DNA of 64,000 bases. It comes from Planctomyces sp. (GTDB lineage: Bacteria; Planctomycetota; Planctomycetia; Planctomycetales; Planctomycetaceae). Numbering within the stretch: the stretch's first letter is position 1; each line of letters starts with the position of its first letter. Below are positions 1-42,133 of this stretch, in pieces. The position numbers and the translations under genes were made by a program. A model generated the notes under the pieces. It saw only the letters and a list, made by a program, of their open reading frames with translations. It was not told the origin of the DNA and ran no database searches. The stretch lies in assembly GCA_019636235.1 (NCBI GenBank), contig JAHBXW010000001.1, forward strand, positions 62,001 through 126,000, in the 5' to 3' direction.

Positions 1-621
1 ACGGACCTGCAGCCCCTTCTCCTGGGGCTCGATGTGGATGTCGCTGGACCGCTGGTCGAGCGCTTCGACCAGCAGCTCGTTCACCAGCCGGATGACGGAC
101 GGCGCCTGGGCGGATTCGGCGAGTTCGCCGAGCTCGTCCGGAAGCTCATCGAGCAGCTCGACGCCTTCCTCGATCTGCTGCGCCACGAGCTGGGTGATCG
201 TGTCGCCGCCGACGCCCAGGCTCTGCTTGATGAGTTCGATGATTTCATCGCGGCAGGCCAGCACCGGATCGAGCCGGACGTTGCCCAGCGAGCCGAGTTC
301 ATCGAGCGATTCGAGGTCGAAGGGATCGCTGGTGGCGATCGTGACGTGGCCGTTGCTGCGGGACAACGGCATGACCGCGTGGCGAAACACAGCCGTCGCG
401 GGAAACAAAGAAATGACGGCGGGATCGACCTTCGTCCCCTTGAGGGGCACGAACGTCATCTGCAGTTCGTCAGCGAAGGCTCGGAGAACCGCCTCCTCGC
501 TGACCACGCCCTGCGCGACGAGCGCCTGGTCGACGCGCTTCCCGGCGGCCTGAGATCTGGCGTCCGCGACCTGCTCCGGAGTGACCAGCCCGCGCTTCAC
601 GAGCAGCGACGCGATGTCCAT
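1..621 (-). CDS. gspE: Type II/IV pilus-type secretion ATPase GspE/PilB, N-terminal part (cut by window edge)
   Basis: This frame starts at the ATG complementary to 619-621 and stays open to base 1, giving the first 207 residues. The start reads MDIASLLVKRGLVTPEQV, a typical GspE/PilB N-terminal (MshEN-like) module. The last visible residues contain SSDIHIEP, the conserved entry to the ATPase core of GspE/PilB proteins. By family, this is the cytoplasmic hexameric ATPase that powers pseudopilus or pilus assembly. The Walker A and B motifs would lie outside the window. It begins 126 bases downstream of the secretin-like gene on the same strand, so the two are probably co-transcribed. PilB and GspE cannot be told apart from this fragment. 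Confidence 0.88.
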   Translation of the reverse strand, partial: MDIASLLVKRGLVTPEQVADARSQAAGKRVDQALVAQGVVSEEAVLRAFADELQMTFVPLKGTKVDPAVISLFPATAVFRHAVMPLSRSNGHVTIATSDPFDLESLDELGSLGNVRLDPVLACRDEIIELIKQSLGVGGDTITQLVAQQIEEGVELLDELPDELGELAESAQAPSVIRLVNELLVEALDQRSSDIHIEPQEKGLQVR

Positions 622-3700: not shown

Positions 3701-4707
3701 GCGAACCGGAAGTTGAATGAGATTTTCGCATCGGCCGGCGTGGCTGATGGCGATGACGTGACGACGCCCCCGCCGGGCAGGCCAGCCGGCGCCATCGACA
3801 GAATTGGCGGCGCATCGGGAACGGGCTCGTAGCCGGGCGAGAGGCGTCGCTGCTGATTGCTGTCCGGCGTCGCGTTCCGCGCCTGCGGCAGATTGCCGGA
3901 CGCGCCGCCCCCCGCGACGTCCGTCGGCGGCGGACCAATCCGGCTCTGCCACCGCGACTGCTGATCGGGCGTCAGCACGGCCATGAACTTCTCGTCGAAC
4001 TCCGCGCGGAGCGCATCACGGTCTTCCTGGCTGGCCCGGAAGCCGAGGTCGCGCAGCGCGGTCATGTACTCCTGCGTCACGCCGCTCAGCGATTCGCGCT
4101 GATCCTCCGTGAGTTTGAATTCGCCAGCGAGATCATCCCGGGCCAGAGCCGAGGGGCCGGTGCGGTGCAGCGAGATCTGCTGCAGCCGGTTCCATTGCTC
4201 TTCGCTGAGGATGCTCTGAATCTGCGATTCGCTTTCCGCCTGCTGGCGGGCCATCATCTGCTGCATTTCTTCGCGGAGCGCTGCTCGTTCCTCGTCGTCC
4301 GCATTGCGCATCCTCTCGAAAATCTCGCCCATTTCCGGCCCGGGATTTCGGCGGGCCTGCATGAGTTCGTCGATCTGCTCCTGCTGCTCGTCGGTGACGC
4401 CAATCTCCTGTTTGGTGGATTCCCGGAAGAGTTCTCCCATGGCGCCGCCGCCCGGGCCTCCGAATCCGCCGCGGCCGGGACCGCCAAAACCACCGCCGCC
4501 GGGACCGCCGAAGCCACCGCCGCCGAAGCCGCCTCGTCCGCCTCGGCCGCCGCGATCACCGCCGCTGGAGTCCGTGTCATTGCCGCGGTTTCCGCCGCCG
4601 CGGCGGCCACCCTGGGCGAGCGCATCGCCGGCCAAAAGTCCCACGAGGGCCAGCAGCCACAACGCGGTGACGGCACGGCGGATGTTCGCGGTCAGTCGCA
4701 AGGTCAT
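748..4707 (-). CDS. Secretin N-domain repeat protein with glycine-rich ends and LTxxQ-like helical region
   Basis: The protein has 1319 residues from the ATG at 4707. That start is preceded by GGAGG at good spacing and by a possible -10 element TAGAAT at 4749-4754; an upstream in-frame ATG at 4770 is less likely. Order: signal peptide ending in a LAQ site (about 1-32); Gly-rich stretch (34-89); a helical charged region (about 95-260) with LSEEQ, LTEDQ and LTPDQ motifs resembling the Spy/CpxP family; an STN-like segment; about seven or eight secretin-N-like repeats (about 340-1190); and a Gly/Arg-rich tail. I do not see the C-terminal secretin barrel domain. It is adjacent to gspE, so a periplasmic or outer-membrane secretion role is likely. 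The missing barrel leaves its exact role open. Confidence 0.8.
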   Translation of the reverse strand: MTLRLTANIRRAVTALWLLALVGLLAGDALAQGGRRGGGNRGNDTDSSGGDRGGRGGRGGFGGGGFGGPGGGGFGGPGRGGFGGPGGGAMGELFRESTKQEIGVTDEQQEQIDELMQARRNPGPEMGEIFERMRNADDEERAALREEMQQMMARQQAESESQIQSILSEEQWNRLQQISLHRTGPSALARDDLAGEFKLTEDQRESLSGVTQEYMTALRDLGFRASQEDRDALRAEFDEKFMAVLTPDQQSRWQSRIGPPPTDVAGGGASGNLPQARNATPDSNQQRRLSPGYEPVPDAPPILSMAPAGLPGGGVVTSSPSATPADAKISFNFRFALWLDVLQLFAKTSNLSLDIRDMPPGTFTYYDSGVYSPTEALDIINGFLIQRGYILVRRDQALVCINWDTNPIPPNLIPNISAEELPQRGRNELLTIVVPLEGVDVKQVAAEIDLIKGPLGSVHGLPSTNSLMVTDIGSNLKRINDMLLGLSPMVPGDLTFKPYELDHITAEDAEAVVRAQLGIPVTSQNVSSSNFEAQFRNAMRGGGGGPGGPPQRGGGERMDFSRSPSSTSSSPQITSDERTNRLLVTATAAQHKIVEDVLKVIDVGTDGAGNVLQGGNRRPYLRVYSLNTSDPRDVSKTIDAIMPGVVVNEDRGNRKVHIMGTETQHQKVAELIAQLDGLGTGSQQVVVIPLVKMDPATAVSSLRSMFIRDGNSAPTIEPDIFGRQIMVRGSMEQVAQVKALLTSLGEDGTGQRMASQGGRLRTFPLSGRDADEILPLLEDMWGSTGRSQIRIVNPRDRGPVRGVRSPGLDLMNGNPTSTEPAGLPPRRDRGMEPDRPRATTAPTLQKSLPGGAISGLLAAQPEEVETHETAVYQEEESAEADDPAPAPTGIDVVPRADGPRGGRSPQNVESFGAQVQIIVMGDELVLSSSDEQALDQLEDMLQSAMQAVPPRTGWTIFTLQSADAYETAILLEQLFPDSSVSTSAASSSSGMMGMFSSGVSSFGSSLMSMTGMSSAMSATTLTIIPDGRLNALFVSGPAGKVRDVEEMLQILDATDWPDNYRMRVPRTIPVEYADVDEVHTIVRDTYRDYLESEQSRQQRNGANVLAQMMGGGGGGGGGRGGNNRDSANSQAQLALAVDRRTSHLIVSANEDMFQQVQALVRTLDRQAQEARRSVRVLSVDHVDPGLLTSTLGSMLPKVNVTAAGTRPTRRDEGAARGGDTQPGGGQSPDEMRRAFQQMRGGQQGGGQGGSPFGGQQGGNRGGQFGGGQFGGGQFGGNRGGQQFGGGNRGGFNFGGGGGGRGGGGGGGGGGRGGGGRGGR

Positions 4708-4977
4708 GGGATATCGCCTCCGCGGGCTGCTGACGCTGTCGGACATTGATTCTATCGCCAGAACACGCAACAGGTTATGCTGAATTTGCGGAATTTGCGA
4801 CGAAGCGGGGTTCTCCGCACCGATTCACAAAGTGCCGGAATTCCATCGGGCGTTCGGATTTTCTCGACCCCCCGGCGGACGGGCCGGGGTTGGATGTTTG
4901 CACATGGTCGCGCGCCGACAATCATGACTATAAAACACCGGGGGCCGAGCCGCCGGGTCGCGCTTCTCCGAGGATTC

Positions 4978-6225
4978 ATGAACCTGAGCCGAACAGTTTG
5001 GACACGTAGCGCGATTCTGACGTGCGTGCTGCTCCATGCGCCTCTCGCCGTAGCACAGAATGGGCCGGGACGGGGTTCCGGCCAGGAACGGGGCGGCCGT
5101 TTGATGCAGCAGATGCGGGAACGCGGCGCCGAAGGGGGCCGGGATTCGAATCGTGGCGGCGGCGAGGGTGGCGGCCGGATGCGGTTTGTCGACCAGTCCA
5201 GCGGCGAGAACGGCGGCGGAGCCCCGATGTCCGGCGGTCGCCAGTTTGGCGGACCGGGCATGCTGCGTGGCCGCGTCGACGGAGGCCAGGATTCGCCGAC
5301 GCGCGGCGAATCGGGCGGCGGACGCGGCCCCTGGGGCGGCGAGTCCGGCGGCGGTCGTGGACAATGGAACAACGAGAATTCCGAGTCAGGTGGGCGCGGG
5401 AACTGGCCTCCTCAGGGGGGTGATTTCGGCAGCCGTGGACCTGAAGGCGGGCGCTGGGGCGGCGGAAACGGCGGTGGAGGGAATTGGGGCGGCGATGAGG
5501 CAGGCGAGTCCCGGAGCCGGGAAGGGGGTCGCAGTGGAAGCGCCCGTGGCGGAAACAACGCCACCGGAGAACGGGCCGTCGAGAAGAAGCCCCGCGAGCG
5601 GTACACCGTCGATCTGCCCGCGTCACTCGCGGATCTCGATACGGACAATGACGGTCAGATCGGGTTGTATGAGTGGAAACGCGGCAAGTCGGGCACCGTC
5701 GCTGAGTTTCAGCGCATCGATGCGGATGGCGATGGGTTCCTGACGCCTTTCGAGATCGTTCGCAGCGGATATTCGCGCCGGTCGTCGACCGCGAACATCG
5801 CCGCGAATGGCGGAAACGGCGGGAATGGAGGCAACGGCAACAACGGCGACGCTGCCGTCGCGAACAGCGGCGCTGGCAATGGTCGCGGCGATTCCGGTTC
5901 GCGGTCGGCCGCATCGGGCCCGGCGACCGCCAATGTGCCGGCATCCGGCCGTTCCGCGCCGCCGAGCCGGCAGCCGGCGTTCGCCGCCATGGCATCCGAC
6001 GTCGAGCGCGTGGAGATCGACGAGTCGTCGCCGCAGGCCCGGCAGGCGACTCGTTCGTTCAATCTGCTGGATCGCGACGGCGACGGCACGGTCAGCGCCG
6101 AAGAGTGGCGCGCGGCGACGAACCTGCGTCCGCTGTTCGAGAAGGCCGGCGTCGATCTCTCCGAGCCGATGTCCCGCGATCAGTTCGTGTCGCACTACGT
6201 CCGGCTGAACGGTCCCCGCAGCTGA
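4978..6225 (+). CDS. Secreted glycine-rich EF-hand protein
   Basis: The protein has 415 residues from the ATG at 4978, chosen because GAGG precedes it and a signal peptide ending in VAQ follows at once. A TATAAA box at 4929-4934 fits a transcript start just upstream and argues against the in-frame ATGs at 4777 and 4924. Residues 30-200 are Gly/Arg/Ser-rich and low in complexity. Three canonical EF-hand loops follow at about 221-232 (DTDNDG), 248-259 (DADGDG) and 365-376 (DRDGDG), each with Asp at position 1 and Glu at 12. A second Gly/Asn-rich linker separates loops two and three. By family it should bind calcium outside the cytoplasm; its target is unknown. It is divergent from the secretin gene. 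Confidence 0.82.
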   Translation: MNLSRTVWTRSAILTCVLLHAPLAVAQNGPGRGSGQERGGRLMQQMRERGAEGGRDSNRGGGEGGGRMRFVDQSSGENGGGAPMSGGRQFGGPGMLRGRVDGGQDSPTRGESGGGRGPWGGESGGGRGQWNNENSESGGRGNWPPQGGDFGSRGPEGGRWGGGNGGGGNWGGDEAGESRSREGGRSGSARGGNNATGERAVEKKPRERYTVDLPASLADLDTDNDGQIGLYEWKRGKSGTVAEFQRIDADGDGFLTPFEIVRSGYSRRSSTANIAANGGNGGNGGNGNNGDAAVANSGAGNGRGDSGSRSAASGPATANVPASGRSAPPSRQPAFAAMASDVERVEIDESSPQARQATRSFNLLDRDGDGTVSAEEWRAATNLRPLFEKAGVDLSEPMSRDQFVSHYVRLNGPRS

Positions 6226-6995: not shown

Positions 6996-9362
6996 ATGTC
7001 CTTCGGATTTGTTCAGCAGATGATGCTTCTGGGACTGGCGGCCGTGGCCCTGCCGGTCATCGCGCACCTGCTGAGCAAGCGCAAGTTCGACGTCATATTC
7101 TGGGGGGCGATGCAGTTTCTGGAGCTGGGCCGCCGGACGCGCCGACGCATCCGCCTGGAAGAACTGCTGCTGCTGCTATTGCGCATCGGGGTGATTGCGG
7201 CGCTGGTGTTCGCATTCGCCCGCCCGTGGGGCAAAGGGGGGCCGTTCCGCGCGCTCAGCCAGTCCGTGCGGCGGGACGTGGCGTTCGTCATCGACAGTTC
7301 GTACAGCATGGGCTGGGCGGCGGATGGTTCAACGCCGCATGCGGCAGCCCGGCAATGGGTCCATCAGGCGCTGCAGCATCTCGAGCCCGGGGACACGGTG
7401 ACGCTGATCGACGCCCGCGACTCGGTGCAGACGCTGATCGATCAGCCAACGACGGACCTGCGGCTGGTCCGGGAGGCGCTTGACCGACTGGCGTCGCCTT
7501 CCGGTTCGTCGCAGCTCGCGCCGGCCGCGAGCCGCGCCGTGCAACTGCTGAGCCGGGGCGCGAATCCGATCCGCGAGGTGATGATTCTGACGGACGGGCA
7601 GGCCTTCCCGTGGTCGGCAGGCGATGCGGCGCTGTGGGCCCGGTTCGACGACCTGGTATCGCAGCAGACGCTGAAGCCGCGGGTGTGGGCGATCAATCTT
7701 TCCGCGGCGCGTGAAGATTCGGTGAATCGGTCGATCGACCGGTTGGAGCTGTCGCGGCCGACGACGGTCGCGGAGTTTCCGGTTCGGATCCGCACGACGG
7801 TGCGCCAGTCGGGAGGGGCTTCCGAGCGGGTCGCGGTCTGGCTGTCGGTCAACGGGCAGCGTCTCAACGATCAGACGACGGTGGTCACACTTCCAGCGGG
7901 AGGCGAAGCGCCGGTTGAGTTCGAGCATCGGTTTCCGGCGGTTGGCTCGTACCTGGCGACGGTCTCGATCGAGCCGGATGCGCTGCCCGGTGACAACGAC
8001 GCGCATGCGGTTGTCGTCGTGGCGCCGCCCGCTCCGGTGCTGCTGGTGGACGGTCGTCCGCGGCTGGACGCTTCCCGGGGGGCGGCGTATTTCGCGCGGG
8101 CGGCGCTGACCGCGGCCGGAAACGCGGCGCCATGGATCCGGGCGAAGACGGTCGCCGCGTCCGACCTGCAGGCGTCCGACCTGGATGACAAGGACGTAGT
8201 GGTTTTGCTGGACGTCGCCGACCTGCCGGAAGACCGGTTGCGGGAACTGACGAATTTCGTCGGCCAGGGGGGCGGGCTGATCATCGCACCCGGGCCGAGC
8301 GCGGCGCCGAACTTCTACAACGGCGCCTTTTGGAACGCCGGGCAGGGACTGCTGCCGGCGCGGCTGGAATCGCCCCCGGCGGAGGAACTGGCGGCCGGTC
8401 CCGTCGTTCTCGACGCGGACAGTTTCGACGCTCCGTGGATGGCCCGGTTTCGAGCGGGCGTGGGGGTCGATCTGGCGGGAACGCGCATCAGCCGCTGGTG
8501 GAAGCTGCTGCCGATGGAGGAGTCGGAGAAGCCCGCCGATCCGGGGGACGCGCAGCCCGTGCCTCCGGCGACTGCGAAGCACTCCGCGGTGGGGGAGGCC
8601 GTCGTCGCGGGGCGCCTCAAGACGGGCGCGCCCTGGATCGTGACGCGGCGGTTCGGCGCCGGGCAGACCGGTGTGATCGCGACGCCGCTCGACGCCGAGT
8701 GGAGCACGCTGCCGTCGCGGACCGACTTCGTGCCCTTCCTGCACGAGTTCGTGTTTTCGCTGCTGTCGCGCGACAGCGGACGGAACGTCGATGCGGGGAT
8801 GCCGCTGGAGCTGCCGTTGCCCGAGCACGTTCCGCTGGCGAGCGTGGCGTTCCGCACCCCTGACGGGCGGGAGCTGGCGGCCCAGCGCGGCGGGAACGAG
8901 CGGCGTCCGACGGCGCGGCTGGACGCGGCATTGATCCCCGGGGTGTATCAGGCGATCCGGAAATCGCGTCCGCAGGACCCTCCGGAGTATTTCGCCGTCG
9001 AATTCGACCGCCGCGAGGCGGACCTGACGCCGCTGGACGAGGCGTCGCTGGCGCAGTTGACGGGCGCGGAACGGATGTCGTCGATTCGCGGCGTCGACGA
9101 GTGGTCGGCGGCAGTGGCCGGGGATGCGCCCCGTTCGGAAATCTGGTGGCTGCTGCTGCTGGCGGTGCTGGGACTGCTGGTGTTCGAGGTGGTGATGACG
9201 CGGCGGCTGATCAAGGGCGGACATGAGCTGACGGAGTCGGAGGATGCGGCGGGGGAGGCGTTCGGGCAGTCCAGCGACGCCGCGCCGGGGACGCCGGGGA
9301 GACGGTCGCCGCGCGGAGTTGCTGTCGGCGGCGGGAACGCTCACACTCCGACCGACGGCTGA
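6996..9362 (+). CDS. BatA-like VWA-domain membrane protein
   Basis: The protein has 788 residues, with GGAAAGG upstream of the ATG. The N-terminus is the BatA-type membrane module: a hydrophobic helix at about 8-25 followed by LLSKRKFD, and a second helix at about 57-76. A von Willebrand A domain follows, with the MIDAS motif DSSYS at 100-104. The central part contains Ig-like and glutamine-amidotransferase-like beta-rich regions. A C-terminal helix at about 707-727 anchors the protein again. In the Bacteroides aerotolerance (Bat) and planctomycete relatives, such proteins sit with MoxR and DUF58 genes; those are not next to it here. The MMPL exporter begins 90 bases downstream and is probably co-transcribed. 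Confidence 0.85.
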   Translation: MSFGFVQQMMLLGLAAVALPVIAHLLSKRKFDVIFWGAMQFLELGRRTRRRIRLEELLLLLLRIGVIAALVFAFARPWGKGGPFRALSQSVRRDVAFVIDSSYSMGWAADGSTPHAAARQWVHQALQHLEPGDTVTLIDARDSVQTLIDQPTTDLRLVREALDRLASPSGSSQLAPAASRAVQLLSRGANPIREVMILTDGQAFPWSAGDAALWARFDDLVSQQTLKPRVWAINLSAAREDSVNRSIDRLELSRPTTVAEFPVRIRTTVRQSGGASERVAVWLSVNGQRLNDQTTVVTLPAGGEAPVEFEHRFPAVGSYLATVSIEPDALPGDNDAHAVVVVAPPAPVLLVDGRPRLDASRGAAYFARAALTAAGNAAPWIRAKTVAASDLQASDLDDKDVVVLLDVADLPEDRLRELTNFVGQGGGLIIAPGPSAAPNFYNGAFWNAGQGLLPARLESPPAEELAAGPVVLDADSFDAPWMARFRAGVGVDLAGTRISRWWKLLPMEESEKPADPGDAQPVPPATAKHSAVGEAVVAGRLKTGAPWIVTRRFGAGQTGVIATPLDAEWSTLPSRTDFVPFLHEFVFSLLSRDSGRNVDAGMPLELPLPEHVPLASVAFRTPDGRELAAQRGGNERRPTARLDAALIPGVYQAIRKSRPQDPPEYFAVEFDRREADLTPLDEASLAQLTGAERMSSIRGVDEWSAAVAGDAPRSEIWWLLLLAVLGLLVFEVVMTRRLIKGGHELTESEDAAGEAFGQSSDAAPGTPGRRSPRGVAVGGGNAHTPTDG

Positions 9363-9452: not shown

Positions 9453-11711
9453 ATGTCGGATGCGGTCGCCGGTGCGGAGCGGGAACCGCCGCCGACGCAT
9501 TCGAGGCTGGAGCGGGTCGGGGGCTGGCTGGCGAGGCGACGTGTGCTGCTGCTGCTGACGGCCGTGGTTCTGACGGCGCTGGCGGCCGTGCCGGCGTCGC
9601 GATTGTCGCTGGATGAGTCGATCGAGTCGTTCTTCCCGCCCGGCGATCCGCTGCTGGAGCAGTACCTGGCGAGCCGCGAGGCGTTCGGCGGGGACGAGTT
9701 CGTGCTCGTCGCGTACCCGGAACAGAATCCGACGCATTCGGACCAGCTGACCTCGCTACAGGAGTTCTCAGACCAGTTGAGCGCGGCGCCGGGCGTGCTG
9801 GCGGAGAGCACGCAGGACCTGGCGCGGACGCTGCGCGTTTCGACCGGCCCGGTCCTGAACCTGCTTCCGCGGATTCCGGCCCGGTTGGCGCGGCGCACGA
9901 TCCGCGACCGGCTGATCGAGTTCTCCCGCAGGCTGTTGATCGACGACGAGAACAGCGTGTCGGCGATTGTGTTGCGGCTGGCGCCGGAGTCCGAGTCGCC
10001 GGTTTCCCGGCGTCAAACGTTGCGGGAGATCCGTCGGCTGGCGGACGCGCACGACCCTCCGGCGTATGTCGCGGGCGAACCAGTGCAGGTCAACGACATG
10101 TTCCGGTATGTAGAGCGGGACAGCCGCGTGCTGGGGCTGGCGTCCACCGGGCTGATGGTGCTGGCGATTCTGCTGATTTTCCGCCGTCTGCGGTGGGTGC
10201 TGCTGCCGCTGGCGATCGTGCATGCGACGCTGCTGTGGACGAAGGCCGTGCTGTATTTCGCGGATTTCAAGTTGAGCATGGTGAGCTCGATGCTGACGTC
10301 GCTGTTGACGATCATCGGCATCGCGACGTGCACGCACATCATCGTGCAGTACCGCGAGTTGCGGTTGCGCCTGAGTCGGGAAGACGCGTTCCGGCGGGTG
10401 TTCGGTCTGGCGGCGGGGCCGATCTTCTGGATCACCGTGACGACGATGATGGGCTTCGGCGCGTTGCTGACGAGCGAGATCACTCCGGTCCGCAGCTTCA
10501 GCTGGATGATGACCATCGGGACGGGGCTGTTGCTGGTGGCGTTTCCGCTGATCCTGCCGGCCGGCGTCCTGTCGGGGCCGACGCGGGACGAGCCGTCGCC
10601 GGGGCTGATCGAACGGCGGGCGGAGGCGACGCTGGGCCGCGTATCCGCATGGGTCGACCGGCATTCGGCGGCGACGCTGACGTTGACGCTGGTCGCGGCG
10701 GCCGCGGCGGCGATCGGCTGCTTCCTGCAGCGCGTGGAAACCGACTTCAGCAAGAATTTCCGGTCGGGGAGCCCGATCGTGAAGTCGATCCGGTTCTTCG
10801 AATCGAACCTGGGCGGCGTGGGAAGTTGGGAGGTGACGTTTCCCGCGCCTCAGGAATTGACGACGGAATACGTCGGCGAAGTCCGCAAGCTGGCGCAGAG
10901 GCTGCGGGAGCTGGAACTCGAAGACGGCACGCGGCTGACGAAGGTCATCGCGCTGACTGACGGGCTCGACCTGATTCCGCAGATCATCGCGGAGGACTGG
11001 ATCATCAAGCGGGACTGGCTGCGGCGACTGCAACCGGAGTTCGAGCCCTCGCTGTACAACCCAGAACGCAAACGGATGCGGATTCTGCTGCGGGCTTACG
11101 AGCAGCAGCCGGCGGAACAGAAGCTGGCGCTGATCGCCGCGGTTCGCCGGACGGCGCGGGAGATATTTCCGGATGCCGACACGACGGGGCTGTATGTCCT
11201 GCTGTCGAACCTGATCACCAGCATCCTGGGGGACCAGTTGCGGAGCGCGTGGATCGCCGGACTGGGGATTCTGCTGTCGACGTTTCTCGCGTTTCGCAAC
11301 TGGCGGATCGCGCTGCTCGCACTGATGCCGAACGTGCTGCCGATTCTGTTGGTGGTGGGGGGCATCGGCTGGTCGGGCGTGCCGGTGAACATCGGAGCCG
11401 CGATGGTGGCGAGCGTGTCGCTGGGTCTGACGGTGGACGCGAGCATTCTATACCTGACGGACTACCGCCGGGCCCGTCGCCGCGGATTGCCGCATGCCGA
11501 GGCGGTCCGGGAAACGCAGGAGGGGGCGGGGCTGGCCGTCATCCTGGCGAGCCTGGCGCTGATGTCCGGATTCGCGGTGCTGACGCTGTCGGAGTTCATC
11601 CCGCTGGTCTACTTCGGGGCGCTGGTCAGCGTGGCGATGGCCGTGGGGCTGGCGGGCAACCTGGTGCTGTTGCCCGTGCTGCTGAAATGGATTCCCAAAG
11701 CGGCCGAATAG
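9453..11711 (+). CDS. RND/MMPL superfamily exporter
   Basis: The protein has 752 residues and starts at an ATG with a strong AGGAGGGAGGAC ribosome site. Architecture is the usual RND layout: one helix at about 31-50, a large extracytoplasmic loop, five helices, a second large loop, then a final helix bundle. The second bundle contains the segment GLTVDASILYLTDY, where the Asp is a plausible proton-relay residue. The matching first-bundle segment has ATCTH in place of an acidic pair, so the relay may be asymmetric. Members of this group export lipids such as hopanoids, or other hydrophobic compounds; the substrate here is unknown. It follows the BatA-like gene on the same strand. Confidence 0.85.
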   Translation: MSDAVAGAEREPPPTHSRLERVGGWLARRRVLLLLTAVVLTALAAVPASRLSLDESIESFFPPGDPLLEQYLASREAFGGDEFVLVAYPEQNPTHSDQLTSLQEFSDQLSAAPGVLAESTQDLARTLRVSTGPVLNLLPRIPARLARRTIRDRLIEFSRRLLIDDENSVSAIVLRLAPESESPVSRRQTLREIRRLADAHDPPAYVAGEPVQVNDMFRYVERDSRVLGLASTGLMVLAILLIFRRLRWVLLPLAIVHATLLWTKAVLYFADFKLSMVSSMLTSLLTIIGIATCTHIIVQYRELRLRLSREDAFRRVFGLAAGPIFWITVTTMMGFGALLTSEITPVRSFSWMMTIGTGLLLVAFPLILPAGVLSGPTRDEPSPGLIERRAEATLGRVSAWVDRHSAATLTLTLVAAAAAAIGCFLQRVETDFSKNFRSGSPIVKSIRFFESNLGGVGSWEVTFPAPQELTTEYVGEVRKLAQRLRELELEDGTRLTKVIALTDGLDLIPQIIAEDWIIKRDWLRRLQPEFEPSLYNPERKRMRILLRAYEQQPAEQKLALIAAVRRTAREIFPDADTTGLYVLLSNLITSILGDQLRSAWIAGLGILLSTFLAFRNWRIALLALMPNVLPILLVVGGIGWSGVPVNIGAAMVASVSLGLTVDASILYLTDYRRARRRGLPHAEAVRETQEGAGLAVILASLALMSGFAVLTLSEFIPLVYFGALVSVAMAVGLAGNLVLLPVLLKWIPKAAE

Positions 11712-34339: not shown

Positions 34340-36073
34340 ATGTTCCGCATCGGCCTGCTGCTGCTGGCTATTGTCGTCGGCGTCGCCGCGCCCGCCCAGG
34401 CGCAGCGCGAGTCCTATCCCGATCATCCGGATTCCGTCCGACAGCCGGGCGTTCCTGAAGGCAAGGTTGAGGGCCCGTTGGACTGGTCGAGTTCCATCTA
34501 CCCCGGCACGCAGCGGCAGTTCTGGATTTATGTGCCGGCGCAGTACGACGCCGCCAAACCCGCGTGCGTGCTGGTCACTCAGGATGGCCTGGGCATGGCG
34601 AACGGCTGGAAGCTGCCGGTCGTCATGGACAATCTGATCCACTCGGGGGAGATGCCGGTGACCATCGGCATCTTCATTAGCCCCGGCGTGGTCCCCGCGC
34701 CGCATGAAAACGCGCAGCCGCGGTTCAACCGCAGCTTTGAATACGATGCGCTGGGCGACCGCTACGCGCGGTTTCTGCTCGAGGAGATCCTGCCCGAGGT
34801 GGGGGGCCGGTACAACCTCAGCCAGGATCCGAACGATCGGGCCATCGCCGGCGCCAGCAGCGGAGCGATCTGTGCCTTCACTGTCGCCTGGGAACGCCCG
34901 GACGCGTTCCGCCGCGTGCTCAGCAGCATCGGCACGTATGTCGGCCTGCGCGGAGGGAATGAGTACCCCGTCCTCGTCCGCAAGACGGAGCCCAAGCCGA
35001 TCCGCGTGTTCCTGCAGGACGGATCGAACGATCTCGACATTTATGCGGGAAGCTGGTGGGTCGCGAATCAGGACATGCTCTCAGCGCTGACCTGGGCCGG
35101 GTACGACGTGCATCACATCTGGGGCGAAGGCGGCCACAATGGCCAGCACACGGCCGCCATCCTGCCCGACGCGCTGCGCTGGCTGTGGCGCGATTACCCG
35201 GAGCCGATCCGCGCGGCGCATCCCGACAAGCATCGCGTCGACGTCCTGATTCCCGGCCAGAGTTGGGAACTCGTCAGCGAGGGGTACAAGTTCACCGAGG
35301 GAGGCGCGGTCAACGCGGCCGGCGAAGTGTTCTTCACCGACATCCCCAACAATCGCATTCACCGGATCGCCGTGGACGGGACGGTCAGCGTGTTCGCGGA
35401 GAACACGCAGGGCGCGAACGGCCTGAAATTCGGACCGGACGGACGGTTGTACGCCTGCCAGGACGGCGCCCGGCAGATCGGCCGGTATGACGACGCCGGG
35501 AACGTGGAAGCGGTTGTTTCCGGGGTGAACTGCAACGACCTGGTCATGATGCACGACGGGCAGGGCTACTTCACTGATCCGACGAATCGCAAGCTGTGGT
35601 GGTTCAACACGGCGGGCGAGAAGAAGATCGTCGACGAGGAGGGGCTGGAGTTCCCCAACGGGCTGGCGACATCGACGGACCAGACGCTGCTGTTCGTCGC
35701 CGATACGCGGACGCGGTTTGTCCTCAGCTATCAGATCCAGCCGGATGGTTCGCTGGCGCACAAGCAGCCGTACGGCTGGCTGCACTGTCCGGACGACACG
35801 ACGCAGTCGGGCGCGGACGGCATGACGGTCGATGTGGCGGGCCGACAGTACGTGACGACGAAACTGGGCCTGCAGGTGCTGGATCAGACGGGGCGCGTGA
35901 ACCTGATCCTGCCGACGCCGAACCGGCGCTGGCTGGCGAACGTGGCGTTCGGCGGCGTGGAGCGGGACGTGATCTACATTTTCTGCAGCGACAAGGTGTA
36001 CCGCCGCAGACTGAACACGCGCGGCGCGGTCGGCGCCGAGCCTCCCTTCCAGCCGCCGCGGCCGCAGCTGTAG
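34340..36073 (+). CDS. Secreted esterase fused to SMP-30/gluconolactonase-like propeller
   Basis: The protein has 577 residues with a signal peptide ending in QAQ (about 1-22). Residues about 45-290 are an esterase D/enterochelin-esterase-like alpha/beta hydrolase with the nucleophile elbow GASSG (Ser173), an acid in QDGSNDLD (about 227-231) and His266 in GEGGHNG. Residues about 300-570 form an SMP-30/gluconolaconase-type six-bladed propeller, with FTEGGAVNAAGEVFFTD (in parts), NGLKFGPDGRLY and LEFPNGLATS. It probably acts in the periplasm on sugar esters or lactones; the combination suggests sequential hydrolysis but this is inference. It is the last gene of the plus-strand run from 29705. 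Confidence 0.87.
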   Translation: MFRIGLLLLAIVVGVAAPAQAQRESYPDHPDSVRQPGVPEGKVEGPLDWSSSIYPGTQRQFWIYVPAQYDAAKPACVLVTQDGLGMANGWKLPVVMDNLIHSGEMPVTIGIFISPGVVPAPHENAQPRFNRSFEYDALGDRYARFLLEEILPEVGGRYNLSQDPNDRAIAGASSGAICAFTVAWERPDAFRRVLSSIGTYVGLRGGNEYPVLVRKTEPKPIRVFLQDGSNDLDIYAGSWWVANQDMLSALTWAGYDVHHIWGEGGHNGQHTAAILPDALRWLWRDYPEPIRAAHPDKHRVDVLIPGQSWELVSEGYKFTEGGAVNAAGEVFFTDIPNNRIHRIAVDGTVSVFAENTQGANGLKFGPDGRLYACQDGARQIGRYDDAGNVEAVVSGVNCNDLVMMHDGQGYFTDPTNRKLWWFNTAGEKKIVDEEGLEFPNGLATSTDQTLLFVADTRTRFVLSYQIQPDGSLAHKQPYGWLHCPDDTTQSGADGMTVDVAGRQYVTTKLGLQVLDQTGRVNLILPTPNRRWLANVAFGGVERDVIYIFCSDKVYRRRLNTRGAVGAEPPFQPPRPQL

Positions 36074-36105: not shown

Positions 36106-37503
36106 TCACACGGCCACTGAAGATGACCGCAATCGTCGCAAACGGTCGAAGCAGGCTGAGATGAACAGCGGCGGCAGGAACAGCCCGGCGGCGTCCGTCA
36201 TCCGTCCCAGCGGAGGACACACCGGAACCACGACGGCCAGGCTGAATACGGAATACAGAAACGCGATCAGGAACAGCACCTTCGTGCCGCGCGAGGGGGC
36301 CGCCGTTGTGTGCCGGCCTCGCAGGATCACGGCGAGTTCCAGGCTGATCAGCAGCAGCGCCGCCAGCAGCGACCACGGGTTGAGAATGAAATCGGCGGCG
36401 AGCTTCCGCGCCGCCTGCCGCGACGCCTTCGTCAGCCACGTCGCGTAGTCGCGCGAGCGCGCGCGAATGATGGACGTCGCCAGCTCCCGCAGTCGGCTGT
36501 TGACCTCGGCGTTGTTGCCGTCCGAGCGCTCTTCCGCGATCGGCGCGTAGACTTTCCAGATCGTGTCGTCGTAGCGCGCCTCGAGCCGCGCGTAGTTCAG
36601 CCGGTCTTCATGTGCGCCGGGATGATCGGCGGGCCAGAGCGCGGACTGCCGCTCGACAGCGGCCTCGGCCAGCGGACGCATCCTGTCCGGCAGCAGCTTG
36701 ACGTGCTGCGCGTCCAGGAACTGTCCGGCGACGCCGATCAGGTTGTAGCCGCCGAAGGACACGATTCCGAATCGGCCCACGACCGCCGCCCGCAGAGAAC
36801 AATAGGCCAGCAGCGGAAACGCTCCCGCGATCATCAGGACCACGAAGTCCCGACGGAGGCGGTTCCATGGCAGATGCGCGTGCAGCACGCGCCGCAACGC
36901 CAGCGACAGCACCGGAATCAGCGCGATCAAAAACACCATCGCCGGTCGCACCAGCCAGGCCGCGGCGACCACGCCGGCGATCAGCAGCGTGCTGCCCCGG
37001 GACGGATGCTCAAACACCGCGCGTCGCAGCACCAGCGCGACGACGGTCAGCCCCAAAGCGGCCGCGAGAAAATCCGTCGCGACGGCGGCGACTGTCGCCT
37101 CCGGTCCGATGACGATGTTCGCTCCCAGCAACCACAGCCCGCAGGTCGCCGCCTTGCCGGTCCGCGCCACGGTGGCGAATGCCGAGGCGAACAACAGCAC
37201 CGCCATGCAGTACAGGACATATTGCAACAGGGGCACGGCCCGCCAGTGCGAGGCGACTTTGCCGGCGAATTTCAGGAACAGCGGATAGCCGGGCGTCCGG
37301 TAGTGCTCCAGCGCCGCGGACAACGGCCGGAACGGGAACTCCGTGTATCCGGACGTGTCGGGCACGATGACCGGCGACAGCCGCCCCCGGGCGTACAGCG
37401 CCGCGCCGAACACCAGCATGATGCCCAGCATCAGCAGCACGGCCGGGGCGCGGAGGCGTCGCGGCTGCAGGACGATCGCAACGTCGGCGGCCGGGTCAGC
37501 CAA
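36106..37503 (-). CDS. GT-C-like polytopic membrane glycosyltransferase candidate
   Basis: The protein has about 465 residues with a TTG start at 37503, chosen because AGGA precedes it and it sits beyond the decarboxylase stop; a frame open further upstream would overlap that gene. About ten hydrophobic helices are visible. The first periplasmic loop contains PDTSGY and HYRTPGYPLFL, typical of the GT-C/ArnT/PMT superfamily, where the Asp is catalytic and the RTPGYP motif is common. It would move a sugar from a polyprenyl carrier on the outer side of the membrane. The start is uncertain. It follows the decarboxylase gene after 80 bases on the same strand. Confidence 0.68.
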   Translation of the reverse strand: MADPAADVAIVLQPRRLRAPAVLLMLGIMLVFGAALYARGRLSPVIVPDTSGYTEFPFRPLSAALEHYRTPGYPLFLKFAGKVASHWRAVPLLQYVLYCMAVLLFASAFATVARTGKAATCGLWLLGANIVIGPEATVAAVATDFLAAALGLTVVALVLRRAVFEHPSRGSTLLIAGVVAAAWLVRPAMVFLIALIPVLSLALRRVLHAHLPWNRLRRDFVVLMIAGAFPLLAYCSLRAAVVGRFGIVSFGGYNLIGVAGQFLDAQHVKLLPDRMRPLAEAAVERQSALWPADHPGAHEDRLNYARLEARYDDTIWKVYAPIAEERSDGNNAEVNSRLRELATSIIRARSRDYATWLTKASRQAARKLAADFILNPWSLLAALLLISLELAVILRGRHTTAAPSRGTKVLFLIAFLYSVFSLAVVVPVCPPLGRMTDAAGLFLPPLFISACFDRLRRLRSSSVAV

Positions 37504-37583
37504 GGGGACGGGTCCTGGAGGTCGAGCGGAGGGAAGGCAAACGCCGGTTGTATCAGACGGCGCGGCCGGGAGCCGCTGAAAAA

Positions 37584-39104
37584 TCAGAGCCCCGCGACCT
37601 GCCGGCCGATGTCCCGAAGGGCCTCCAGCAGCCCGGCGAAGTGGGCCTCCACGGTCAGCGGATTCATGACGGTGCAGCGCAGCGCCCCCGCGCCCCCCAG
37701 AGATGTCTGCGTCAGGTAATACCGGCCGGAGAGAATCAGGCGCCGGCGGATCTCCCGGTTCGCGTCGCCAATCGCCTCCAACGACTGGCCGCGCAGCCAG
37801 TCTGGAACGTGCCGGAAGACAACGATGTTTCCCTGCGGCTCGTGCAGGGGTTCGAAATCGTCCGCCTCGACGATCAGCGAGTGCAGCCGCAACGCTCCGT
37901 CGCACGTCGCGTCGACGAGATCGCCGAAGATTCGCGAGCCGAACAGCGACCACACGCCCCACAGTCCGAATGCCGCGGCCCGCTTGGTGCATTCGACGGT
38001 CATCAGCCCGACGTCGTAGTCGGCCGCCGCAGGCGCCGAGGGATCGAACAGATACGGGGCCTCCTGGCGAAACGCCTCAAACCGATGCTCCGGGCGCTTG
38101 TAAAACACGAACGCGCACAGCGCCGGGACGAACAGCATTTTGTGGGCGTCGCAGATGAAGCTGTCGGCCCGGGCCAGGCCGTCGAGCAGCCCGCGGCGCG
38201 TTTCGCTGAAGATCATTCCGCCGCCATGCGCGGCGTCCACATGCAGCCACACGCCATGCCGCTCGCAGACGTCGGCGATCTGCGGCAGCGAATCGAACGC
38301 GCCGATGGGCGTCGCGCATGAGCACGCCACGACAGCCACAACCGGCGTGCCGTCCCGCGCCAAACCCGCCAGGATCGCATCCAGAGCGTCGGGATCCATC
38401 CGCCGCCGCTCATCCAGCGGCGCCCGGATCACCTGCTGCGTGCCCAGTCCGAGCATGCCGGCCGAGCGGGCGATTCCGTAATGGGCATCGGCATGCACGA
38501 CGAGCGCCGGCCGCGGCCCCTCCTGCGGCAGTCCGTGCTCCCAGGCCTCGGGGAGCGCGACGTTCCGCGCGGTCAGCAGGGCCGTCAGATTCGCCAGCGA
38601 GCCGCCGCTGGTGATGAGTCCTGCGAACCGGCCCGCGGGGAGACCCAGCGCCTCGCCCCAGCGGTGGATCAGCGCGCGTTCCACGGCCGTCGCCCAGGGG
38701 CCCATTTCGTAGACCGCCATCACCTGGTTGGTGACCGTGCCGAGCGCATCGAACAGGCCGGCGATGGGGGAGGGGGGCGGAACCTGATGCCCGATGTAGC
38801 GTGGGTCATGAAGGTTCTGACCGCGCGACAGACACTGCTCCGCGAGTTCCTGAAACCGCGCTTCCAGTTGGTCGCCCGCGACGGGGCTGCCCTCCCCAGC
38901 GGCCAGTTGGCGCTCCGCCTCCCGCACGTTGACTTCGGGTGGATTCCAGTTGAGAACCTTGCCGGACGAGCTTTCCACGGAACGCAGGTGCGACGTCAAC
39001 AGCCGCCGCCAGGTCTCGGCCAGTTCCCCGAAACGCTCTGGCGAATACAGCTCGTCGATGCGCCGTCGCGCTTCCGAGGCAGCGTCCTGTTCAGCAGCGC
39101 TCAC
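37584..39104 (-). CDS. PLP-dependent (group II) amino-acid decarboxylase
   Basis: The protein has 506 residues, normal for the glutamate/aspartate/aromatic-amino-acid decarboxylase group. The phosphate-binding TSGGSLANLTAL is at about 165-176, HVDAAHGG with the ring-stacking Asp290 at 288-295, and the Schiff-base Lys322 in CDAHKML. The GXXS and HxxY-like motifs are present, so the fold is intact. Substrate cannot be fixed by reading; aspartate, glutamate, tyrosine and tryptophan decarboxylases share these motifs. Its start codon overlaps the stop of the coiled-coil gene upstream (ATGA, 39101-39104), so it is translationally coupled to it. Confidence 0.9.
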   Translation of the reverse strand: MSAAEQDAASEARRRIDELYSPERFGELAETWRRLLTSHLRSVESSSGKVLNWNPPEVNVREAERQLAAGEGSPVAGDQLEARFQELAEQCLSRGQNLHDPRYIGHQVPPPSPIAGLFDALGTVTNQVMAVYEMGPWATAVERALIHRWGEALGLPAGRFAGLITSGGSLANLTALLTARNVALPEAWEHGLPQEGPRPALVVHADAHYGIARSAGMLGLGTQQVIRAPLDERRRMDPDALDAILAGLARDGTPVVAVVACSCATPIGAFDSLPQIADVCERHGVWLHVDAAHGGGMIFSETRRGLLDGLARADSFICDAHKMLFVPALCAFVFYKRPEHRFEAFRQEAPYLFDPSAPAAADYDVGLMTVECTKRAAAFGLWGVWSLFGSRIFGDLVDATCDGALRLHSLIVEADDFEPLHEPQGNIVVFRHVPDWLRGQSLEAIGDANREIRRRLILSGRYYLTQTSLGGAGALRCTVMNPLTVEAHFAGLLEALRDIGRQVAGL

Positions 39105-42100
39105 TTCGGCGTCCGCTCCTCAGCCAGCCGTCGGAAGTAGGCCTCCGCGGCGTCACGATAGCCGACCGGCACGCCTCGCAACTGGCCCCCGGATGAGCCG
39201 CTGAATCGGCGCGATTCCGGATTCAGCGATTCATTGTCGGCGGGCAGCGCGACGCCTTCCGGCGCGATGCCGCGGCCACGGCCGTCGCTCTGCATCGACG
39301 TGTTCTTTGCCGACTCGCGGGCATCCTGCGTGCGGGGCCCGGCGACCTGCATGTTCGCCTGCGATCCGGGGAACGACTGGCCGGGACGCCACAGTCCGTC
39401 TCCCTGGCCACCCTGACCCTGTCCCTGGGCCTGTCCTTCGCCCTGGCCGCCCGACGTCCCGCCTTCGCCCTGGCCCTGACCCTGGCCGCGTTTTCCAAGC
39501 CCGGGCACGCGACGCCCTTGCGACATCTGCTGCAGGCACTGGCCCAGCCGCTGCCGCGACAGGCTCAGCGGCCCATCCAGGCCGTCCTGCAGGCCCTGGC
39601 ATTGCTGACACTGCCCCGCCTCGGCCTGCAGCGACTCCAGTTTGCGGGCGGCGTTCTCCGCATGGCGGTGCGCCTGGTCCCCGTTTCCGTCGCGGGACGC
39701 CTGAGCCGCGGTTTGCTGGTCGGCGGGAATCTGCAGTTCGCCGATCTTCTCACAGATCGAATCCGCGCTGTCGGACATTTTGGGAAGCCGCTCCCGCCCC
39801 GCGTCCGCCGCCTCCTGAAGATCCTTCTGCAGCGATTCCAACTCCTGCTGCAGCAGTTCCTGCTCTTTGGCGAACCGCTCCGCCCGGGCCTCTTCGTCCG
39901 CGGACAGCGAGGTCTTGCCGGCCAGCTCGGCCATGCGATTCGCGAGGTCGCGCTGTTGCGTGATGACCGCCTGCAGGCGATCGATCTGCGCCAGCATGCT
40001 GTCCGCCAGCCGCATCAGTTCGAGGTCCTGCGACATCGAGTCCAGATGTTCGCGGGAGGCGTCGTCAAACGGCTCCTGCTCCTTGCGGAACTTCTCCTCA
40101 GCATTCTGAAACTGTTTCCGCGCGTCGTCCGGATCGCCGGAGGACTGCCGCATCCGCGACAGGGACTGCGCCACCTCGGACGAGTTCTGCGACTGCTGCT
40201 GGAGATGCTTCGCGAGCTTCTGCAGTTCCTCGCCGTACTCCTTTTCCAGCTCGTACAACTGCAACTGCTGGGCGCGGTCTTCGAGGTTCTTCTCCAGCCG
40301 CTCGGAGTCCCGGGCGAACTGCTCCAGCTGCTTTTCGAGCTGTTCCAGCCGCTCGGAGTCTTCGTCTCCCAGCGTGCCGGCCTCCGCCTGCTTGCGAAGC
40401 TCATCGAGCTGCTGCAGCAGTTCCTCGCGCTCGGCGCCCAGGCGATCGAGTTCCTTGCGGAAGGTCTCGAACTCCTCGGCGAGATCGTCCATCTGATACT
40501 GCTGACGCGCGAACTCGCGGTACTCGTCCTGCGAGATCACCTGCAGCGTATGCATCCTGGAGTCGGCGGAGCGGGGGCCGCCGGGGAAGTTGTCCTCGGC
40601 GGTGGCGTAATAGGTGATGACGTCGCCGGCCTGGGCTCCGAGTTGATCCAGGTCGAATTCATAAGCCGCCCGGCCGACGTGCGGCTGGCCCGGCTGCCGT
40701 TCCAGATCGACCGGCACGGGGATCCAACCGTTGACCGTCCGGAACACTCGCATCCGCGAAATTGCGACGTCGTCGACCGCCTCGACTGTGACCGGGACTT
40801 TCCAGCCCTCCACCGCGACGAGGTACTCGTCCGGATTGGTGATGCTGACCTGCGGGCCGCGATCCGGAATGGCCGTCAGGGGGCCGGCAATCGGCTCCTG
40901 CGAATCAACGCCGGCGCGCGACGTCAGGCTGAGTTCAAACCGGCCATTGAACTCCAGCGGGAACTCCCCCTCGACGCGCCGCGGATCATCGGCGGCGGGC
41001 GTCAGCTTCACCGCGATCGGATCGGGCGCCGCTTGTCCTTTGGCCGCCGCCGGGTGCAGCAGCAGTCGCCCCGCGGACAGCTCCAGGTTGCTGCGCGCCG
41101 CGACGCGGACGCGCGACCCGACGATGCCGCGCAGGCCCCGCTGATTCAGCGGCTGATCCTGGGCCTTCCAGCCGGTATACGCGGGGGGCTCGAGGCGGGC
41201 CTTCGCCTCCTCGAAGAAGGGAACTTCTGTCACCTGGAGTTCGAAGCGTTCGCTGCGGCCGCGAGGCGTTTCCACGTGGAAGGCCGTCGAGCGGACGGCC
41301 CGGGCGATCTCGGCGACGAAGGTGCGATCCTCGGTGCGGAACATCGGAATCGAAACGTTCAGCGCATCGCCCCCCTGCGGGTCGTGCTGAAAGACCAGCC
41401 GGGCCTCTTCGACACGGTCCGGCCCGCGGACTTCGACGGTGATCGTCGCGGGTCGAGAATGGAAAACGGGTTCGGGAGCGATGCGCGCCTCGAAACTCAG
41501 CAGTGTGTACGGCGGGTGGTCTCCCCACGGGTCAAGAAACCGCGGCAGGACCATCCCGAACAGCTTGGGCGCTGCGAGAAACGCCATCCCGAAGGCCACA
41601 GCCGCTATCACTGCGGCCCCGCCCGCGCGCACGGCCGGCCGCGCGGGGAGCACGTCCATGACGGCCGTCTCACGCACCGATTCCTCCGCCATGCGGATCA
41701 CGCGGGCGCGCAGCACCGGGCTGCCCCCGAGGGCGTCCGACTGAAAGCTGACCGCGTTGATCAACAGGCTGTCTGAACGTCCCAGCCGCTCTTCCGCGAG
41801 CCGCGCCGTCCGCGAGGCGTCGTAGCGCCGTCGCCACAGATCGATTCCCTGGGCGATTCCCGCTGCCGCCAGCAATCCCAGCGCGGCCGCATCGATCGCG
41901 ATTCGAACGGGAACGGACCAGGCGAACGCGGCATCCGACAGAATCGCGAGGAACGCCGCCGCAACGGCCGCAACGCACAACCAGCCGACATGCGTCAGCG
42001 TCCGCAGCGTATTCCGCCACAGACTGACGCGCCGCAAAAAGTCGTCCAGGACGGATTCGCGGCGGGCGGAATGGGCGAGTCCGGAACGCTCGGGGCGGGC

Positions 42101-42133
42101 CCGCCCGAGGGCGGTGGTCTGGGGATGATTCAT
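39101..42133 (-). CDS. Membrane-anchored Ig-like/coiled-coil protein, 1010 residues
   Basis: The protein begins MNHPQTTALG, with GAGGGGAAG upstream. Three helices lie at about 46-66, 77-95 and 169-188. The motif FLDPWGDHP at 199-207 matches YLNPWGNHP of the giant protein at 13176-19490, and a PPAYTGW segment matches its DPPAYCG. Residues about 210-530 are beta-rich and Ig-like. About 540-880 form a long Glu/Gln/Leu coiled coil. The end is Gly/Gln-rich (GQGQGEGG type) before a basic tail. Planctomycete proteins of this shape are known but uncharacterised. It shares a 4-base overlap with the decarboxylase gene. The function is unknown. Confidence 0.8.
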   Translation of the reverse strand: MNHPQTTALGRARPERSGLAHSARRESVLDDFLRRVSLWRNTLRTLTHVGWLCVAAVAAAFLAILSDAAFAWSVPVRIAIDAAALGLLAAAGIAQGIDLWRRRYDASRTARLAEERLGRSDSLLINAVSFQSDALGGSPVLRARVIRMAEESVRETAVMDVLPARPAVRAGGAAVIAAVAFGMAFLAAPKLFGMVLPRFLDPWGDHPPYTLLSFEARIAPEPVFHSRPATITVEVRGPDRVEEARLVFQHDPQGGDALNVSIPMFRTEDRTFVAEIARAVRSTAFHVETPRGRSERFELQVTEVPFFEEAKARLEPPAYTGWKAQDQPLNQRGLRGIVGSRVRVAARSNLELSAGRLLLHPAAAKGQAAPDPIAVKLTPAADDPRRVEGEFPLEFNGRFELSLTSRAGVDSQEPIAGPLTAIPDRGPQVSITNPDEYLVAVEGWKVPVTVEAVDDVAISRMRVFRTVNGWIPVPVDLERQPGQPHVGRAAYEFDLDQLGAQAGDVITYYATAEDNFPGGPRSADSRMHTLQVISQDEYREFARQQYQMDDLAEEFETFRKELDRLGAEREELLQQLDELRKQAEAGTLGDEDSERLEQLEKQLEQFARDSERLEKNLEDRAQQLQLYELEKEYGEELQKLAKHLQQQSQNSSEVAQSLSRMRQSSGDPDDARKQFQNAEEKFRKEQEPFDDASREHLDSMSQDLELMRLADSMLAQIDRLQAVITQQRDLANRMAELAGKTSLSADEEARAERFAKEQELLQQELESLQKDLQEAADAGRERLPKMSDSADSICEKIGELQIPADQQTAAQASRDGNGDQAHRHAENAARKLESLQAEAGQCQQCQGLQDGLDGPLSLSRQRLGQCLQQMSQGRRVPGLGKRGQGQGQGEGGTSGGQGEGQAQGQGQGGQGDGLWRPGQSFPGSQANMQVAGPRTQDARESAKNTSMQSDGRGRGIAPEGVALPADNESLNPESRRFSGSSGGQLRGVPVGYRDAAEAYFRRLAEERTPK

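Follow-up and report, generated by a model that had tools for sequence, protein, structure and literature searches.

A DUF4175-related membrane protein family of Planctomycetota as candidate extracytoplasmic arm of MoxR-VWA envelope machines

Two large open reading frames (ORFs) in a 64,000-nucleotide stretch of Planctomyces sp. DNA (hereafter the window) raise the question of whether the proteins they encode, here named P1 and P2, descend from a common ancestor, and in which cellular system such proteins would work. The cell envelope of planctomycetes is unusual and has been little charted. A preliminary description, made from the sequence of the window alone, had taken the two proteins for paralogues with conserved anchors and variable arms. 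The positions of the features discussed here are collected in Table 1, in which C numbers denote contigs of this genome and L numbers denote loci.

Table 1. Features of P1, P2 and their neighbours in the window, and related genes at other loci
Feature	Position	Strand	Remarks
BatA N-terminal domain + VWA protein	6996..9362	+	upstream of P2, same strand
MMPL-family membrane protein	9453..11711	+	between BatA-VWA and P2
P2 ORF	13113..19490	+	2125 aa from GTG; 2104 aa from ATG at 13176
P2 TM helices	residues 53-71, 83-101, 176-194		three hydrophobic segments
PLP-dependent decarboxylase (PF00282)	37584..39104	-	4-bp overlap with P1
P1 ORF	39101..42133	-	ATG start, open, 1010 aa; DUF4175-like membrane protein
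P1 TM helices	residues 52-70, 76-94, 170-188		three hydrophobic segments
Motif FLDPWGDHP	41513..41539	-	P1 residues 199-207
P1 Ig-like domains, about three	residues 213-533		AlphaFold2 beta domains
P1 helical arm	residues 535-843		AlphaFold2 helices
P1 Q/G-rich stretch	residues 876-986		AlphaFold2 confidence low over most
P1 C-terminal helix	residues 990-1007		AlphaFold2
Family members in the genome	P1, P2 (C1), C1:492684, C8:22332, C23:331793, C42:72107, C42:114796		
GATase-like + BatA-like pair	C13, L151:8497-12951		GATase-like 47-48% (next 28%), BatA-like 42%
DUF4159, then thioredoxin-like	C44, L168:8782-10582		DUF4159 71% (next 33%); thioredoxin-like 38%; order as in L045
DUF58	C3, L166:9701-10981		57% (next 33%)
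MoxR	C41, L179:3631-5160		71% (next 54%)
Downstream tail ORFs	L066, L076, L084, L088, L091, L097, L153:13694-14446 (own genome)		

The N-terminal ~550 residues of P1 and P2 are homologous. A P1-clade profile of 8 sequences and a P2-clade profile of 7 aligned collinearly over 531 columns (probability 100, E=2.1e-47), and BLASTP of the N-terminal parts of the two proteins gave E=8e-19 with 24% identity over 457 columns. The preliminary description had named a lack of HMM similarity outside a short motif as the result that would speak against kinship; P1 taken from residue 212 on (4 sequences), without the TM helices and the motif, still matched the P2 profile with a probability of 99.7 (E=6.9e-26, 315 columns). 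The three helices are placed alike in both proteins, and the PPAY[TC]G segment that had been pointed out is found as PPAYTG at P1 residues 316-321 and as PPAYCG at P2 residues 322-327. The low identity, together with the absence of the exact motif from the rest of the family, could suggest a merely compositional resemblance of TM, Ig-like and low-complexity sequence with no common descent. However, the long collinear match, its persistence without TM helices and motif, and the matches of other family members to DUF4175 described below speak against such an explanation, which the profile comparisons refute and to which we give next to no credence.

The motif itself, [FY]L[DN]PWG[DN]HP, proved less general than had been thought. 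It is common to P1 and P2, in the latter of which it reads YLNPWGNHP at residues 204-212 (2125-aa numbering), but the exact form occurs in only these 2 of 61 members, and it was therefore rejected as a family signature; a looser form, [FY][LF]xPxG[DN], is present in 11 of the 61. Elsewhere in the genome the DNA pattern of the motif was found at two places, on C4 and C5, neither of them among the family members.

With a profile of 32 N-terminal regions, seven members were found in this genome, and two further matches with E of about 0.07 (C33 and C23:31309) were set aside. Across an even draw of the phylum, at least one member was detected in 139 of 149 genomes at E<=1e-20 (own genome included), and P1 alone as query gave matches in 58 of 59 genomes (again with its own included), the named records of its relatives including Planctomycetales, Planctomycetaceae, Candidatus Hydrogenedentota and Verrucomicrobia subdivision 3 bins. 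When 61 members were placed in a maximum-likelihood tree, P1 fell in a clade of 8 rows (support 100/99) and P2 in a separate set of 13 rows (98/96), while a P2 clade of 10 was weak in the careful tree (73/27). Since each of the two has its own clade, with orthologues outside the genus, they are old paralogues, in agreement with the preliminary description, and their origin by local tandem duplication was ruled out. The expanded family proposed there is thus borne out by the seven members in the genome, but the nearness of P1 and P2 in the window reflects no local expansion.

The domain databases cover this family poorly. At E<=0.01, 16 of the 32 members matched Pfam DUF4175 (PF13779), the best of them with 1.3e-14; P1 had no Pfam match to it, and P2 scored below the gathering cut-off (16.2 versus 27.3 bits). 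No protein of this genome exceeded that cut-off for DUF4175, and just one of its five sub-threshold matches, which cover profile positions 503-772 (the C-terminal part), overlaps a family member, namely that on C8. At E<=0.01 no NCBIfam model matched more than one of the 32 members, and neither BatD nor any other Bat-named Pfam model matched any of them. The collinear N-terminal anchor, made of three TM helices and the Ig-like region, is present in both P1 and P2. The seven paralogues to which they belong are related to DUF4175 and, in the envelope-machine reading set out below, would be inner-membrane proteins.

The AlphaFold2 model of P1, built with nine sequences, has a mean pLDDT of 76 and a pTM of 0.43 and consists of helices up to residue ~200, followed by the beta domains and the helical arm. 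A Foldseek search with this model returned 383 matches at E<=0.001, and the best 50 of the 383 were mostly multi-domain proteins of Ig or FN3 type; the top match had E=2.2e-9 over 351 columns with a low TM-score. Given that these Ig-type matches have low TM-scores, they support an Ig array in P1 and point to no specific relative. Among solved structures searched by sequence, a chitodextrinase was best (E=4e-4), and the remainder, all at E>=0.08, were of mixed kinds. The coiled-coil C-termini claimed earlier are supported in P1 as no more than a predicted helical arm, those of P2 were read from composition, and on a crude heptad measure both proteins came out uneven. P2 carries an N-terminal anchor as in P1, followed by an arm of ~1500 residues, and the length of the members ranges from ~825 aa to 2638 aa. 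The picture of conserved anchors with variable arms fits. In six family proteins, the 15 residues after TM2 contain 3-5 K/R and those after TM1 contain 0-2; by the positive-inside rule the TM2-TM3 loop of ~75 residues is probably cytosolic, which, with three TM helices, would place the Ig region and the arm on the extracytoplasmic side.

Three results go beyond the preliminary description, namely the C-terminal tail, the operon context and a scattered P1-type gene set. P2 ends in the tail WGxLPxxLxxEILxxxxxxxxxDYxxLIKLYFxEIS. Of the 61 members, 33, P1 and P2 included, have the pattern Yx(4-6)[YF][FY]xx[LIVMA] in their last 70 residues, versus 0 of 1115 windows in other parts of these proteins and 3 of 785 other ORFs of at least 300 aa, one of which lies directly downstream of a tail-less member. 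When a tail profile was run against 8707 locus ORFs, the matches at E<0.01 were family members and ORFs downstream of tail-less members only. A tail model trained without the P1 clade detected seven such downstream ORFs (Table 1) at 2e-12 to 7e-6, and weaker ones at L093, L051, L089 and L100 at 7e-4 to 6e-2; the ten of these downstream tail ORFs outside this genome follow the ten members of a single clade (support 100/99). Because tail ORFs stand downstream of tail-less members, the tail behaves as a module, which is either fused or separate. The tail of P1 may be a shorter version of the family tail: the model trained without the P1 clade did not detect P1 itself at E<=0.1 and did detect its relatives L135 (2e-4), L049 (8e-3) and L045 (2e-2), and a model of seven P1-clade tails did not find P2 at E<=0.1. 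On C42 of this genome, a 250-aa ORF with the family tail (L153) is located directly downstream of a tail-less member.

The gene context of the family points to a MoxR system. The C23 paralogue of this genome is found in the order TPR/peptidase-DUF4159-MoxR-DUF58-BatA/VWA-[family]-GATase. Loci of other genomes were chosen by taking those like P1 or P2 first and the remainder mainly from well-assembled genomes, with their neighbours disregarded; among the 60 fetched (counting L070 and L077, which have no family ORF by the criterion used), GATase-like genes were present in 35, BatA in 29, MoxR in 25 and DUF58 in 25. Where the locus measured 18 kb or more (53 loci), at least one of MoxR, DUF58, BatA and GATase-like was found in 33, and in the other 20, including the P2-like L054-L058, none of the four was in reach. 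For comparison, 12 AAA_3 matches were counted over the 5.6 Mb of this genome; were other genomes similar, ~0.04 would be expected per 19.5-kb locus.

Over 25 loci, including L103 with its MoxR on the other strand, the distances between family proteins correlated with those between the MoxR proteins (r=0.744), and they did so within one host family as well (r=0.832, 15 loci); in neither case did any of 5000 permutations reach r. Part of the species history is common to the MoxR tree and the family tree, so the correlation is not all coupling. At the family level, these distances show co-diversification of the family with MoxR. A simpler role may also be considered: the Ig-like domains, the long helical and partly low-confidence arm, the great range of member sizes and the tail conserved at the far end of many members would suit a structural envelope spacer, or a tether to peptidoglycan or the outer membrane, which the MoxR set just helps to fold or insert. 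We think this unlikely, though it deserves to be weighed, since co-diversification with MoxR suggests partner-specific contact and not a general chaperone client, and since seven forms are kept in this genome.

To place P1 in this context, 14 distinct loci of P1 relatives were compared, namely P1, L044-L050, L131 and L133-L137 (L132 repeats L045 and L138 repeats L047); of these, P1 and L044-L050 are in the tree, and the others were put on the P1 side by best match. MoxR, DUF58, BatA-like, GATase-like, P1 and DUF4159 genes occur together in 6 of the 14 (L045, L046, L049, L050, L135 and L136), and one of these six complete clusters is in Hydrogenedentota. L048, L133 and L137 end at contig ends and match the cluster as far as they reach, L131 has P1 and DUF4159 only, and among the 14 loci the partner genes are absent at L044, L047, L134 and the P1 of the window.

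When this genome was searched with L045 queries, best-matching relatives of the partner genes were found on C13, C44, C3 and C41 (Table 1), so that the P1-type set, with P1 on C1, lies at five loci. The C41 MoxR was the sister of the L045 operon MoxR in a quick tree of 36 (SH-aLRT 95), which used 36 of 79 loci, the others having no tblastn hit, a piece of <220 residues or a stop inside; this tree contains neither operon-bearing L136 nor two of this genome's 12 AAA_3 loci, L174 and L180. In calling the L045 and C13 genes GATase-like we go by their similarity to the C23 protein (PF07090); Pfam gave a sub-threshold VWA match for that of L045 only and nothing for that of C13. In the congener G001 the same split was observed, into GATase-like/BatA-like, DUF4159/thioredoxin-like, DUF58 and P1. 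As a further part of the envelope-machine reading, P1 would probably derive from an operon that relatives elsewhere still keep, its genes having been scattered yet retained in this genus.

The immediate neighbour of P1 suggests another possibility. The 4-bp overlap of P1 with the PLP decarboxylase gene is also present in the congener (L044), the decarboxylase being 67% identical between both genomes; in addition, none of ten nearby ORFs scanned by Pfam is a MoxR-set partner gene, and no AAA_3 match was found on C1. P1 may therefore have left the MoxR machine for a separate, genus-specific function with the coupled decarboxylase. Against this speak the other genes of the old set, retained as clear relatives, the C-terminal YRDAAEAYFRRLAE-type tail that P1 shares with its operon-encoded relatives, and the fact that no linkage of the decarboxylase with P1 was seen outside the genus among the loci fetched, where a decarboxylase match occurred in 2 of 60 (L044 and one more; the other one seen, L079, is 22%). 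We consider such a departure distinctly improbable. A MoxR protein linked with a decarboxylase is known from the RavA-LdcI system (PMC11834572). By analogy, a similar link for the decarboxylase overlapping P1 might be kept as a weak lead: that decarboxylase is of PF00282, and LdcI of a different family. Next to these genes, a 628-aa ORF without Pfam match (36106-37992, minus strand) partly overlaps the decarboxylase ORF, which makes its start unsure, and a putative esterase fused to an SMP-30/gluconolactonase-like domain is encoded at 34340-36073 (plus strand).

Around P2, a BatA-VWA gene and an MMPL-family gene precede the P2 gene on the same strand. An MMPL-family gene is also near the P2 orthologue of the congener (L054), and no BatA match was found near that orthologue. 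Farther upstream, a 1340-aa protein with five Secretin_N stretches, a long Gly-rich tail at its end and a weak LTXXQ match below the cut-off is encoded at 748-4770 (minus strand), and an EF-hand protein with Gly-rich stretches at 4777-6225 (plus strand).

Alphaproteobacterial TIGR02302 proteins, which we take to belong to PF13779 DUF4175, resemble the family in that half of its 32 members match this domain, whereas P1 is unmatched and P2 sub-threshold. Two hints link TIGR02302 to the envelope: one such gene is among the CenR-bound genes tabulated for Rhodobacter (PMC9275681), and a title in the reference list of another paper connects TIGR02302 with an exopolysaccharide-overproducing Azorhizobium mutant (PMC6842974). 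AdvA, a cell division protein of Acinetobacter baumannii, has an annotated DUF4175 domain as well as two TM helices by prediction (PMC7481262); that domain lies upstream of residue 203, and AdvA is likened to the family by the annotated domain name only. Accounts of the Bat (Bacteroides aerotolerance) operon list MoxR, DUF58, BatA-VWA membrane proteins and TPR (PMC5700661; PMC11834572), all in common with the planctomycete sets, which add the DUF4175-like protein. The MoxR set of the R. leguminosarum operon RL3499-RL3502, in which MoxR comes first, is called similar to the Bat region in one of these papers (PMC5700661). What sets the planctomycetes apart from it is the DUF4175-like arm, the occurrence of several sets paralogous to one another and the scattering of the P1-type set in this genus. 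A search of one limited literature collection returned nothing joining DUF4175 or MoxR and BatA with Planctomycetes, and nothing on DUF4159, alone or with MoxR and DUF58.

To our knowledge, no physical interaction or phenotype is known for any planctomycete member. MoxR and its VWA partners are described as chaperone-like machines (PMC12657314; PMC3893208), and the MoxR protein RL3499 as important for membrane integrity and morphology (PMC3893208); on the basis of these descriptions we take the family protein as an extracytoplasmic arm. It would work with a MoxR AAA+ ATPase and the VWA partners (DUF58, BatA-VWA and GATase-like) as an envelope machine, in which MoxR and DUF58 would sit on the cytosolic face and BatA-VWA and GATase-like proteins in the membrane. 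The DUF4175-like protein would be anchored by its three TM helices, with the ~75-residue TM2-TM3 loop in the cytosol, and beyond the anchor its three or so Ig-like domains, a helical arm rich in Q, E and A and of widely varying length, and often a short C-terminal helix would extend from the membrane to an envelope target via arm and tail. We hold it moderately probable that P1 serves a MoxR-VWA machine of this kind as its extracytoplasmic arm, encoded apart from the rest. A physical complex of these proteins, its reach across the envelope and a role in envelope integrity or assembly would follow from the same reading.

More tentatively, and with somewhat less than even confidence, we speculate that Planctomycetota possess parallel MoxR-VWA machines, each with a matched arm protein that keeps its anchor and tail but drifts in arm length; that the tail is separable and became its own downstream gene in one clade; and that the P1 operon, though scattered over five loci, has been kept whole, its parts working in trans. 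What the MoxR machine does in planctomycetes may, by analogy, be an envelope function. A multi-copy family that is present in 139 of 149 genomes of the phylum, tied to MoxR and poorly covered by Pfam and NCBIfam offers a concrete entry point to this envelope, and the genus with the scattered yet retained P1-type operon offers a test made by nature of how its parts rely on each other, and shows which partners to consider.
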